A DNA stretch of 36,701 bases from a virus, in the IMG/VR virus record IMGVR_UViG_3300009136_000021, positions 1-36,701 of that record; one strand, written 5' to 3'. Made by a program: the position numbers and the translations under genes. The notes under the pieces are model-generated. The model saw nothing but the letters and a program-made list of their open reading frames with translations. It was not told the origin of the DNA and did no database searches. The first letter of the stretch is position 1; each line of letters opens with the position of its first letter. Below are positions 20,669 through 36,701 of this stretch, piece after piece.

Positions 20669-21598
20669 TTACAGTCCCGGTGTGCCGTAAACCGCACGCG
20701 GGTCCGTCCAGTCCGGAATGTAACGTTCCGTGGACTTGTACCGCATGGAATCGGTTTCGAAATCACCTTCCATCGACTTCTCCAGCCCGCGACGTTTCAT
20801 CAGCTGCAAGCCGCGAGGTGCATCCGTCTGGACCCACCATGCAGTTGTGCTCGTGATACGCGACAGATTGGCCTGACCCTGAGACAGAAGTCCCATTGAA
20901 AGGATCGGGTTGATGTCGTTGTTCGCTGTGCCAGCGCGCAGGACGCTCTTCAGCAGAACTTCTGCTTGGAACACCTGACTCGGACCCGTGACGATCTTGA
21001 GAGGCTGCAAACGAATCCGCTTGCCGTTATTGTCCACGGCATTTCGGATCTGAATGAGCATCTGCTCAAGTGACGTTTGCGACAGAGCCGCAGCAGTCGT
21101 CAGTAGGTTCGAGAAAACGCCACCAGCAGATCCACCCGGTGCTATTGGGTGATTGGTAACGTTCAGCGCTACACCGTCACCACCAACGAACGCACCATTG
21201 AAGGCACGGTTGAGGATGTTGGCGCAGAGCGTCTCTTTCGTTTCGATCATAGACTGGGCGAGATGCTCAGAATAAATCCGACCGATACGAATGTGGTCGC
21301 CGTCTTCGACCAAGACTTTGGTAAGCGCGAACGCCAGACCGAAGACCTTGTAGACGTAACGCTGAATGAACAGCACTCCGCCTGCGTCGAATGTCACCGG
21401 GGTGCCGTCAGGCATTTCCGGTGCAGCATTGAAACCGAACAGGACCGGCTCTTCATGGTACGAACGGGGGGTACCCTTTCGATCCGTGAAAACACCTTTC
21501 CATTCATCGGCGCGTTGGTTATAGATTCCGTCAAAAGTCTCGTTGAGTATCGGCTCGACAATTGATCGGAAGTCAGTACTTCTCATTGGCACTGCCAT
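20669..21598 (-). CDS. Major capsid protein (HK97 fold, Mu gpT-like group)
   Basis: 309 aa. An N-terminal part (FDGIYNQRADEWKGVFTDRK, YHEEPVLFGFNAAPEMPDGT) leads into the family's conserved middle: YVYKVFGLAFALTKVLVEDG (81-100), then AQSMIETKETLCANILNRAF (114-133) and GGDGVALNVTNHP (139-151). The latter is the long-helix region typical of this capsid family. A C-terminal part holds LQPLKIVTGPSQVFQAEVLL and WVQTDAPRGLQLMKRRG. AAGGAG lies 7 nt before the ATG, one of the strongest sites in the window, as expected for the most abundant virion protein. It follows the scaffold and head genes and is followed by a stable hairpin. Confidence 0.9.
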   Translation of the reverse strand: MAVPMRSTDFRSIVEPILNETFDGIYNQRADEWKGVFTDRKGTPRSYHEEPVLFGFNAAPEMPDGTPVTFDAGGVLFIQRYVYKVFGLAFALTKVLVEDGDHIRIGRIYSEHLAQSMIETKETLCANILNRAFNGAFVGGDGVALNVTNHPIAPGGSAGGVFSNLLTTAAALSQTSLEQMLIQIRNAVDNNGKRIRLQPLKIVTGPSQVFQAEVLLKSVLRAGTANNDINPILSMGLLSQGQANLSRITSTTAWWVQTDAPRGLQLMKRRGLEKSMEGDFETDSMRYKSTERYIPDWTDPRAVYGTPGL

Positions 21599-23798: not shown

Positions 23799-24248
23799 CT
23801 ACAGATAAGCGATGACGTCCATTGGGTTACATGTGATCTGACCAATCAGATCGAGATCGTTGAACAAAGTGAAGCACGCCTGATCGCAACCCGTGCGCTC
23901 ACGTACTTCGTCAGAGAGATCAACCATCCATTTGTCGCCGCCATATTTCGGCACGCGTACAAATGCTCCTGCTTCACACCAGTTGCCTTCCGGCCAAACT
24001 TCCAGAGAGTCGCGATTCTTAAAAGCCGCTGGACCAAGCGTGATGACTTTAGCCACTTGAGTGTTCCAGAACTCAGTGTCTTGGGTATCATCCGGAACGA
24101 TAATCCCACCTTTAGTGACCGCACGTGGCGAACGCTTCTGAACCAAAACCCGCGAACCAAACGGTACCAGACCCGGATCGGCCTCCGGAAATGCCTGATC
24201 AACTGAGTCGTAGTCCAAAATTGTTCTTAAGCGTGCAACCATGGTCAC
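23799..24248 (-). CDS. GroES-like co-chaperonin
   Basis: 149 aa. The start could be the GTG at 24248 (AGGA 7 nt upstream) or the ATG at 24242. Residues 28-52 (VPFGSRVLVQKRSPRAVTKG, GIIVP) match the N-terminal strand and mobile-loop region of Cpn10 proteins; residues 63-72 (TQVAKVITLG) match the following barrel strands, and 91-109 (CEAGAFVRVPKYGGDKWMV) the dome part. The C-terminus DVIAYL corresponds to the last strand. Phage co-chaperonins such as T4 gp31 replace host GroES so that GroEL can fold the capsid protein. Its place between portal and scaffold/MCP supports that role here. Confidence 0.82.
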   Translation of the reverse strand: MTMVARLRTILDYDSVDQAFPEADPGLVPFGSRVLVQKRSPRAVTKGGIIVPDDTQDTEFWNTQVAKVITLGPAAFKNRDSLEVWPEGNWCEAGAFVRVPKYGGDKWMVDLSDEVRERTGCDQACFTLFNDLDLIGQITCNPMDVIAYL

Positions 24249-35202: not shown

Positions 35203-35424
35203 CTAATCAGTAATGATCATCCAATCGTTCGCGAGCAGATCGGTCTGTGATGCAAGCCATGGAACCAGTTCACCATCAACTGGCGAAATGTAAATGTACG
35301 GCTTGCGCATCTTGCTGTGTTCGTCTGGTACCTGCAATTCCAAGTACTGGCCCGGACCATTCCAACCCTCTCGTGTAACCTTACTGCCGTGTCGCATTGC
35401 TGCGATTGCGTCTCCAATATTCAC
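35203..35424 (-). CDS. tad2: DUF2829 / Tad2-family protein (Thoeris anti-defence)
   Basis: 73 aa from a GTG at 35424 with AGGAG about 9 nt upstream. The N-terminus IGDAIAAMRHGSKVTREGWN, then GPGQYLELQVPD, and the C-terminus DGELVPWLASQTDLLANDW are the signatures of DUF2829. The founding anti-defence member, Tad2, sequesters the glycosylated cyclic ADP-ribose signal of Thoeris, blocking the abortive response. Length is near the family norm, with a shorter middle than larger members. It lies at the end of a coupled accessory gene run, where phages often carry counter-defence genes. Family membership is strong; binding activity of this copy is inferred. Confidence 0.85.
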   Translation of the reverse strand: MNIGDAIAAMRHGSKVTREGWNGPGQYLELQVPDEHSKMRKPYIYISPVDGELVPWLASQTDLLANDWMIITD

Positions 35425-35434
35425 TTTGCTTCTC

Positions 35435-35656
35435 CTATAGCGGACTTGGTGCCTGATTTCTTTTTTCGATCAGTACAAGTTGTGACGGTGGCACCCAGTA
35501 TTGCCCCTGCTTCTCTCTGCACAAGGTATGTTCAGCGGTGACCCAAAAGCCGTTTTTCAAGTCGTCGAGGGACCAATGTTCGTGATCGGGCGTCGGTTGT
35601 TTGCGCGGTCGGCCTGCGATTGTGAACGTGACAAAAAAGGGACCTTCAACTGACAT
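35435..35656 (-). CDS. Small hypothetical protein
   Basis: 73 aa from the ATG at 35656, which overlaps the stop of the Tat-like/capsid-fragment gene; GGGAG lies 9 nt upstream. A beta-rich start (GPFFVTFTIAGRPRKQPTPD) is followed by LDDLKNGFWVTAEHTLCREK and GQYWVPPSQLVLIEKRNQ. The pattern VPPSQLVLIE suggests a small SH3-like barrel, but I cannot assign a family. Its place between the capsid-fragment fusion and the Tad2-like gene suggests an accessory or host-interaction role. Confidence 0.65.
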   Translation of the reverse strand: MSVEGPFFVTFTIAGRPRKQPTPDHEHWSLDDLKNGFWVTAEHTLCREKQGQYWVPPSQLVLIEKRNQAPSPL

Positions 35657-36041
35657 ACATCTGCTCCCGTGAGATTCCTTCGACGTGTAGGAAATCCCGC
35701 TCGTCATCCCACCATGTTTTGAATGCGACCGGGTGCTCACTCGATTCGAGTGCGACACCGTCTCCGAACGCGCGATTGAAGACGTTCGCTGTGATGCGCT
35801 CTTTCGTTTGCATCATGGAGCGCGCCAGTGCACGAGCACGACTGTCAGCGATCTCAATGCACATCTGTTCGAGGCTCTGCTCGCTCAGATCGGCGGGAGA
35901 GATCAAGCTGTTTTCCAGTGACTCTCGCGGGATCACGTAGTGCGCAGTGCCATACGTTTTGTGAGTGTACTTTTCAGTACCCGGCAAAGCAGCTGCAACG
36001 ACTGCAGCAACGGTACCTTTCAAAAATTTACGTCTGTCCAT
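35646..36041 (-). CDS. Tat-like signal joined to a capsid-protein fragment
   Basis: 131 aa from an ATG at 36041 that overlaps the end of the preceding gene. Residues 1-22 (MDRRKFLKGTVAAVVAAALP) match a twin-arginine signal (RRxFLK plus hydrophobic region). Residues about 28-104 resemble the middle of capsid proteins: LARSMMQTKERITANVFNRA and GDGVALESSEHP align with MCP residues 112-151 of this same genome. I count 21 identities in 34 aligned positions, with one 6-residue gap. The capsid N- and C-terminal parts are absent. The last ~27 residues (FKTWWDDERDFLHVEGISRE) are unrelated. It is not a complete capsid protein, so it is probably a repurposed fragment. Confidence 0.75.
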   Translation of the reverse strand: MDRRKFLKGTVAAVVAAALPGTEKYTHKTYGTAHYVIPRESLENSLISPADLSEQSLEQMCIEIADSRARALARSMMQTKERITANVFNRAFGDGVALESSEHPVAFKTWWDDERDFLHVEGISREQMYVS

Positions 36042-36336: not shown

Positions 36337-36522
36337 CTAACAGACGCAGTGATCAGTTAGTTCCTTGAAATACGCCACGGGGGAATCTTTTCCGGATTGC
36401 GTGACTACACGCCAGCCCTCCCACTCACCTTTGCCATGCTTCACGTACGTGCGAGAGCCGCCTTTCTGGTTCTTGCGTAGGGCTTTTAAAGTGCAAAAAT
36501 TGCACTGAGTCAGTTCGCTCAT
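36337..36522 (-). CDS. Cys-rich mini-protein
   Basis: 61 aa from the ATG at 36522, which overlaps the upstream stop (ATGA). A longer frame to 36552 lies inside the upstream gene. Cys7/Cys10 (CNFC) and Cys59/Cys61 (DHCVC) could form a zinc ribbon around a central beta part (SRTYVKHGKGEWEGWRVVTQ). Small zinc-ribbon proteins are frequent in phage accessory regions; the function is unknown. Confidence 0.65.
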   Translation of the reverse strand: MSELTQCNFCTLKALRKNQKGGSRTYVKHGKGEWEGWRVVTQSGKDSPVAYFKELTDHCVC

Positions 36523-36701
36523 AAATAAGCCAGTACTTTCTCGGTTACGCACCTTTGGGCGAGCCCTTTGGACTGTTTTTTCTTCACCAGCTCGATCCGG
36601 AAAGCAGCCGCGTTGACTTGACCAATTCCCATGCGTTTTTCGAGTTTTTCGAAGATTTCCAACCCTCTCGCAAGCTTCGAGTTTTTATTTGGCGTTTTTC
36701 C
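36519..36701 (-). CDS. C-terminal part of a hypothetical protein (partial)
   Basis: A frame enters from the right edge and ends in TGA at 36519-36521, giving 60 residues: KLARGLEIFEKLEKRMGIGQ, then VNAAAFRIELVKKKQSKGLA and QRCVTEKVLAYL. It is basic and helical. The N-terminus lies outside the window. Its stop overlaps the ATG of the next gene. No family was recognised. Confidence 0.6.
   Translation of the reverse strand, partial: GKTPNKNSKLARGLEIFEKLEKRMGIGQVNAAAFRIELVKKKQSKGLAQRCVTEKVLAYL

Follow-up and report, generated by a model that had tools for sequence, protein, structure and literature searches.

Small phage genes joining a targeting module to shuffled segments of the major capsid protein

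Introduction

Why does a phage that encodes a full-length major capsid protein (MCP) also carry a small intact gene in which pieces of that protein family follow an export signal? The question is raised by a gene, here called Q, in the window, by which is meant the whole stretch of DNA analysed (IMG/VR record IMGVR_UViG_3300009136_000021, 36,701 nucleotides), a linear virus record of 36.7 kb whose structural genes lie on the minus strand. A preliminary description, made from the sequence without database searches, had read Q as a Tat-like signal joined to one capsid fragment, and had considered a decoy, an exported capsid-derived factor or a relic of capsid recombination. MCP-sensing defences, among them CapRel, Thoeris, CBASS, Lit and PifA, form a growing class, and to our knowledge little is known of phage counters to capsid sensing other than mutation of the capsid.

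The Q gene and its product

Q lies in a gene cluster that includes a Tad2-like gene, and its frame overlaps those of both neighbours (Table 1). The upstream gene y is kept in three other records (G038, L004 and G002), and Tad2 adjoins a minigene of the Q type in one clade only. No promoter match was found near Q. The model of the full MCP matches the HK97 capsid 1ohg in Foldseek (E=4e-10), and its PDB matches are HK97 capsids and encapsulins. Upstream of the MCP gene, positions 23799-24248 read as a GroES-like co-chaperonin gene, which is annotated as such in cultured relatives.

Table 1. Positions in the window of Q, its segments, its neighbours and the full MCP gene
Feature	Coordinates	Strand	Evidence or remark
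Full MCP, 309 aa, Mu gpT-like, HK97 fold	20669..21598	-	PF10124; AlphaFold2 pLDDT 83.6; Foldseek
Tad2-like gene (Thoeris anti-defence 2)	35203..35424	-	PF11195 87.5 bits, cut-off 25
x, gene downstream of Q (MSVEGPFF...)	35435..35656	-	11-nt overlap with the end of Q
Q, Tat-headed minigene with MCP segments, 131 aa	35646..36041	-	Intact ORF
Q residues 1-22, Tat signal (MDRRKFLKGTVAAVVAAALPGT)	35976..36041	-	TIGR01409 above cut-off, PF10518 just below
Q residues 23-48, YTHKTYG motif (MCP 79-89)	35898..35975	-	Weak alone, 54/2000 shuffles as good
Q residues 49-66, ADLSEQSLEQMCIEI (MCP 170-184), transposed ahead of the spine-helix segment	35844..35897	-	0/2000 shuffles as good
Q residues 67-93, spine-helix segment (MCP 113-133)	35763..35843	-	0/2000 shuffles as good
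Q residues 94-107, DGVALESSEHP loop segment (MCP 141-153)	35721..35762	-	0/2000 shuffles as good
Q residues 108-131, without MCP similarity	35649..35720	-	1115/2000 shuffles as good
y, gene upstream of Q, 99 aa	36028..36327	-	14-nt overlap with Q

The N-terminal signal that had been proposed is borne out by the twin-arginine model TIGR01409, against which Q scores 19.8 bits (cut-off 16.7); the score against PF10518 is 22.2 bits, below the cut-off of 22.7, and no clear AxA cleavage site was found in the signal. Similarity to the MCP of the same genome is detected by blastp (E=9e-12) and phmmer (6.7e-12), and a profile of 30 MCPs matches Q at E=7.7e-16, with no unrelated family found. Q 68-106 aligns with MCP 109-153 with a single 6-residue gap, and the fragment originally described (MCP 112-151, 21 identities in 34 positions) is consistent with this alignment.

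Each segment of Q was compared with the phage's own MCP using 2000 shuffles (Table 1). The fragment is real and the last residues are unrelated to the MCP, as the preliminary description had it, but its picture of a single fragment missed both the weak match at residues 23-48 and the transposed segment at residues 49-66 (PADLSEQSLEQMCIEIAD). The latter precedes the match to MCP 113-153, whereas in the MCP residues 170-184 come after it, and a second MCP profile (FAM 4) recovers the same transposition, with hmm 148-184 placed ahead of hmm 110-154. The segment order of Q differs from that of the MCP. The motif ALARSMMQT in the spine-helix segment is the A1 invariant. AlphaFold2 did not fold Q with confidence (pLDDT 45, 5 sequences), and in place of the complete collinear HK97 fold (N-arm, E-loop, P- and A-domain) the protein holds reordered pieces only; Q is therefore not an MCP.

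A family of shuffled minigenes

The preliminary description covered one gene. Q is in fact one of a family of minigenes built from shuffled motifs, and this family is more telling for mechanism than the single fragment. The build of signal plus capsid fragment recurs in other phages, and tblastn-confirmed scans of IMG/VR place the family in 25 virus records including the window, some of them with identical proteins. A complete or near-complete MCP gene is also present in 11 of the 25, and in the nine longer of these the distance from it to the closest minigene is about 9-17 kb (14 kb in the window); in one clade a minigene immediately precedes the large terminase gene. The L004 protein is 79% identical to Q over its full length, and L006, L015, L022 and others have in common RRxFIKG...ALP, YTHKTY and ALARSMMQT.E..ANVFNRAF. 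Family matches to the MCP profile reach E values down to 1e-16.

For description, the MCP was divided into seven conserved segments in MCP order: N (5-33), E (E-loop, 55-74), Y (80-96), H (spine helix, 102-138), G (DGVxLxSxxHP, 140-155), L (LSExSLEQ, 165-185) and C (C-terminus, 277-305). These seven segments at most are split across the minigenes in varying order; one minigene holds up to four of them, often in an order absent from any MCP. The order is Y-L-H-G in the window and L004, G-Y-H in G038, G-Y-H-L in G041, H-Y in L172 and G032, E-H-Y in L234 and L236, E-Y-H in L237, G-E-L-N in set B (L006, L022, L174, L209), G-E-L in L231 and L233, G-E-N in L230 and Y-H in others. Several genomes hold two or three minigenes, often adjoining and overlapping (also L157 and L172): G043 combines a TM-tailed N-C with Tat-C and Tat-G-E-N, and G047 combines Tat-C with Tat-E-H-Y. 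Taken singly, certain segments match weakly (for example Y in G032 and G in L118), and the family claim is one of totals and recurrence. The pattern Y.[HY].T, written like the other motif patterns after the sequences had been seen so that its counts are descriptive, occurs in 17 non-MCP ORFs, all of them family members, versus about one in shuffled ORFs. In L006:3483-3848 and its set-B relatives, a stretch LLHDAAHHDL that is absent from the MCPs looked at stands ahead of the E-loop piece; its invariant HDAAHH could bind metal.

The segments travel on several carriers. TIGR01409 is matched by 17 of the 26 family proteins tested and PF10518 by 14, and M1, R3 and R4 are invariant in the alignment. 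C-terminal hydrophobic TM tails are found in L006:4983-5189, L233:9888-10118 and L230:7577-7801. One case among the carriers, G032:50607-50846, joins DGVALCSTAHP to a ClpX-like C4 zinc finger, which matches PF06689 (zf-C4_ClpX) at E=2e-5 with 24.8 bits, below the cut-off of 27.

Controls and database searches

The main control applied the MCP profile to 22 member records (645 kb, 10,926 ORFs of at least 35 aa). Nearly all non-MCP matches at E<=5 were minigenes, the exceptions, at E 0.5-4.5, being C-terminal-motif frames (L174, G040, L004), one L006 frame and one G037 frame. Reversed ORFs gave one match only (E 4.8); an earlier, smaller set gave none at E<3 and one at 4.5, so that no reversed ORF scored below E 4. 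Chance similarity is ruled out by these reversed-ORF controls together with the shuffles. When 24 conserved families were used as profiles, the MCP alone was dispersed in pieces and the terminase, portal and tail families were not, which rules out a general fragmentation of structural genes; the other matches were truncated full-length homologues, antisense frames or the shared Tat signal (FAM 18).

No minigenes were found in 80 other MCP loci (1.12 Mb, 17,292 ORFs), where flanks extend to at most 10 kb and more distant genes could be missed, or in two cultured relatives, Caulobacter phage RW and Alcaligenes phage QDWS535. Searches of cultured phages by tblastn with Q, a set-B protein, L236 and the second of the G032 proteins returned only MCPs, chance matches or nothing, and a prevalence search with A1 mostly recovered MCPs again. 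GTDB genome contigs and PDB sequences gave no family match. In Pfam, NCBIfam and PHROGs no family-level match was found beyond Tat, two weak capsid matches and the zinc finger, and the matches to phrog_35485 and phrog_10981 (E about 0.001-0.01) are too weak for use. In the open-access papers searched, no description of phage Tat proteins with capsid pieces was found; since most subscription papers lie outside that search, the novelty of the capsid-motif minigenes is provisional.

Selection and turnover

The minigene family is under purifying selection. Between Q and its L004 homologue dN/dS is 0.21, and other minigene pairs give 0.23-0.47 (genes x, y and set C apart). In the same comparison of Q and L004 the Tat segment is almost unchanged (pN 0.04, pS 0.57), residues 49-66 (the LSEQ segment) have pN 0.02 and pS 0.40, the helix segment has pN 0.14 and pS 0.34, and the GDGV loop segment (94-107) is relaxed (pN 0.35, pS 0.29). 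A decayed MCP duplicate or pseudogene is ruled out by the intact frames and the dN/dS of Q; no frameshifted copies were found, in agreement with the preliminary description, which had argued against a decaying pseudogene.

The payloads are subject to turnover. The window and G038 are 84% identical in DNA over gene y and the first 18 codons of Q, are then unalignable, and regain similarity at the stop codon. As read from this alignment, the difference is a swap of the whole payload cassette behind the Tat signal, and the payload appears to be a hypervariable cassette. The MCPs of the window, G038 and G002 are nearly the same, and their payload orders differ. The Q helix is identical to its own MCP at 13 of 26 positions and to the G038 minigene at 22 of 26. 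In general a minigene helix is closer to the helices of other minigenes than to that of its own MCP. G032 is the exception: its helix is similar to that of the clade-1 MCP (19/26), which suggests a separate capture. The E-loop motif FGLAxxKxEG, by a likewise descriptive count, is present in 12 minigenes and absent from all 11 MCPs in the member records. Mimicry of the phage's own MCP is unsupported in view of the helix identities and the absence of this motif from the MCPs.

Discussion

In the Q family, small phage genes couple a targeting module to segments cut out of the MCP, which often stand in scrambled order. The linear segments are individually conserved, freely reordered and retain MCP consensus residues, which suggests that each binds on its own, and the tag for the membrane or for export that the proteins have in common suggests that a bound partner is moved. 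From these two points together it is proposed, as a possible but by no means probable reading, that the capsid segments are baits with a disposal route and serve as a defence decoy. A protein that binds MCP segments would take the bait in place of the MCP and would be held at the membrane or hitchhike out through Tat; with the zinc-finger carrier, the bound partner would be handed to ClpX. The prey would most likely be an MCP-sensing host defence protein, such as Thoeris ThsB1, CapRel, Lit, PifA or the CBASS sensors, and next most likely the MCP subunits of a rival phage. Among the options of the preliminary description, a predicted exported capsid-derived factor fits all that was computed, including the Tat model match and the conservation of the architecture in other phages.

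In Sau-Thoeris, ThsB1 is the sensor of the MCP, and escape mutations fall in the E-loop and P-loop (PMC11312562). Lit can be activated by the linear MCP peptide Gol, and CapRel is triggered by the MCP (PMC9712102). Co-export of hitchhiking partners through Tat is established, and PaoA export needs its partners (PMC4273604). The bait-and-disposal proposal is favoured by the independent carriers (Tat and TM tails) that would reach the same compartment, by the dispersal of the MCP alone among 24 families, by the hypervariable payload, and by the different payload orders that go with nearly identical MCPs; the Tad2-like neighbour of Q points to a defence protein as the prey. Against a decoy, the sensors studied mostly read the folded MCP (for Thoeris, the hexamer), which scrambled pieces cannot copy, and the MCP of the same phage is not what the pieces track. 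The restriction of Tad2 adjacency to one clade and the low-confidence AlphaFold2 model of Q also count against baits. Unfolded payloads are poor candidates for passage through Tat, which speaks against bait export.

More broadly, the minigenes may form a new class of phage effector, in which shuffled capsid-peptide baits on interchangeable disposal modules (Tat, membrane tail, ClpX-type zinc finger) are cassette-swapped and module-reordered and eliminate either host factors that recognise the capsid or the capsid subunits of rivals; we place this somewhat short of an even chance. If true, the family could be used directly to find out which capsid segments are recognised, by which proteins and in which part of the cell, and it would be an unusual case of protein evolution in which conserved linear segments are kept while their order changes freely.

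Excised pieces of an HK97 fold would most naturally bind other MCP subunits, and the pieces are nearer to the family consensus than to the phage's own MCP. Both points fit a weapon against competing phages, in which MCP interface pieces (N-arm, E-loop, spine helix, C-terminus) would bind the MCP of a co-infecting phage and either poison capsid assembly or draw that MCP to the membrane, while the MCP of the carrier phage would have drifted from the motifs. Phage factors that block virion assembly are reported to exist (PMC10884400). This explanation is nonetheless rather unlikely: Caulobacter phage RW has no minigenes though its MCP is of the same clade (78% identical), so that divergence of the own MCP is not tied to minigenes, and Tat export would take the inhibitor out of the cytoplasm. 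A role at the membrane in regulating or nucleating the assembly of the phage's own heads would suit the gene position upstream of the terminase and the derivation of the pieces from assembly-active MCP parts, but is improbable given the lack of minigenes in the 80 MCP loci (1.1 Mb, flanks of at most 10 kb) and the two cultured relatives, and the different piece orders in phages with near-identical MCPs.

Exported capsid pieces might also hinder an incoming virion from the periplasmic side, as Ltp does through the tape measure protein; such superinfection exclusion is very doubtful, because an infecting phage is not known to bring its MCP into the periplasm and no lipobox was noticed on reading the sequences. 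Phage-encoded, surface-anchored proteins aimed at virion proteins do exist (PMC3952083). Least credible of all is non-functional debris of capsid-gene recombination, the relic of the preliminary description. A scrambled order is what illegitimate recombination would produce, but the selection analysis contradicts this origin (dN/dS 0.2-0.5), as do the conserved Tat header, the intact frames in many phages that overlap their neighbours, and the confinement of the effect to the MCP.

The minigenes take their segments from the Mu gpT-like HK97-fold MCPs (PF10124; PHROG 4523/371). They hold no more than pieces of these proteins, arranged in an order foreign to the MCP and attached to Tat or TM carriers, and they lack the capsid fold. 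Like Tat substrates (TIGR01409, PF10518) most begin with RRxFxKG and a hydrophobic stretch, but they lack an enzyme or cofactor domain, carry a shuffled capsid-motif payload and, in Q, have no clear cleavage site. Tad2 shares the gene cluster with Q and is unrelated to it in sequence. It is a signal sponge and not a capsid mimic. The Ltp lipoproteins of phage TP-J34, whose repeats bind the tape measure protein, are phage-encoded and membrane-targeted, with an active part aimed at a virion protein (PMC3952083), and the minigene products are predicted to be alike in this; the two differ in signal type and in that the minigene payload is MCP-like pieces, and no model for an Ltp-type HTH repeat domain was matched in Pfam scans. 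The Gol peptide of T4 is a further parallel, being a short linear stretch of the MCP that acts on the Lit protease, a host defence protein (PMC9712102), but Gol sits in an intact MCP and activates Lit, whereas the minigenes are separate genes with reordered pieces.

Related reading frames

Several other frames in these and related phages share parts of the architecture. L206:4608-4847 (minus strand) and G032:50607-50846 have the MCP loop motif DGVALCSTAHPRS at the start and a ClpX-type C4 zinc finger at the end. In another phage, L258:6001-6252 is a Tat-headed ORF of 83 aa whose payload (VVKGNLKVLGDIVLTEDGAIRI) resembles, by eye, a tail-fibre repeat and not the MCP, and is perhaps an analogous device built on a different virion protein. 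L004:1870-2130 and L171:4435-4701 are Tat-headed ORFs of 86-88 aa (MNKTRRGFLK...) near a capsid-motif minigene, with a dN/dS of 0.13 and no significant MCP similarity. A larger Tat-headed family of about 200 aa lies in the same region (L172:1889-2494, L236:5681-6265, L230:6623-7420); it is without MCP motifs, the first two members have no Pfam match, and its signal is of the type common to the minigenes of L119, L230 and L234. Finally, the small non-Tat gene L004:98-505 holds a weak MCP C-terminus motif (EKYVPGWDDPKK; E about 1-3, not significant alone), and its homologue runs off the end of the window at 36519-36701.
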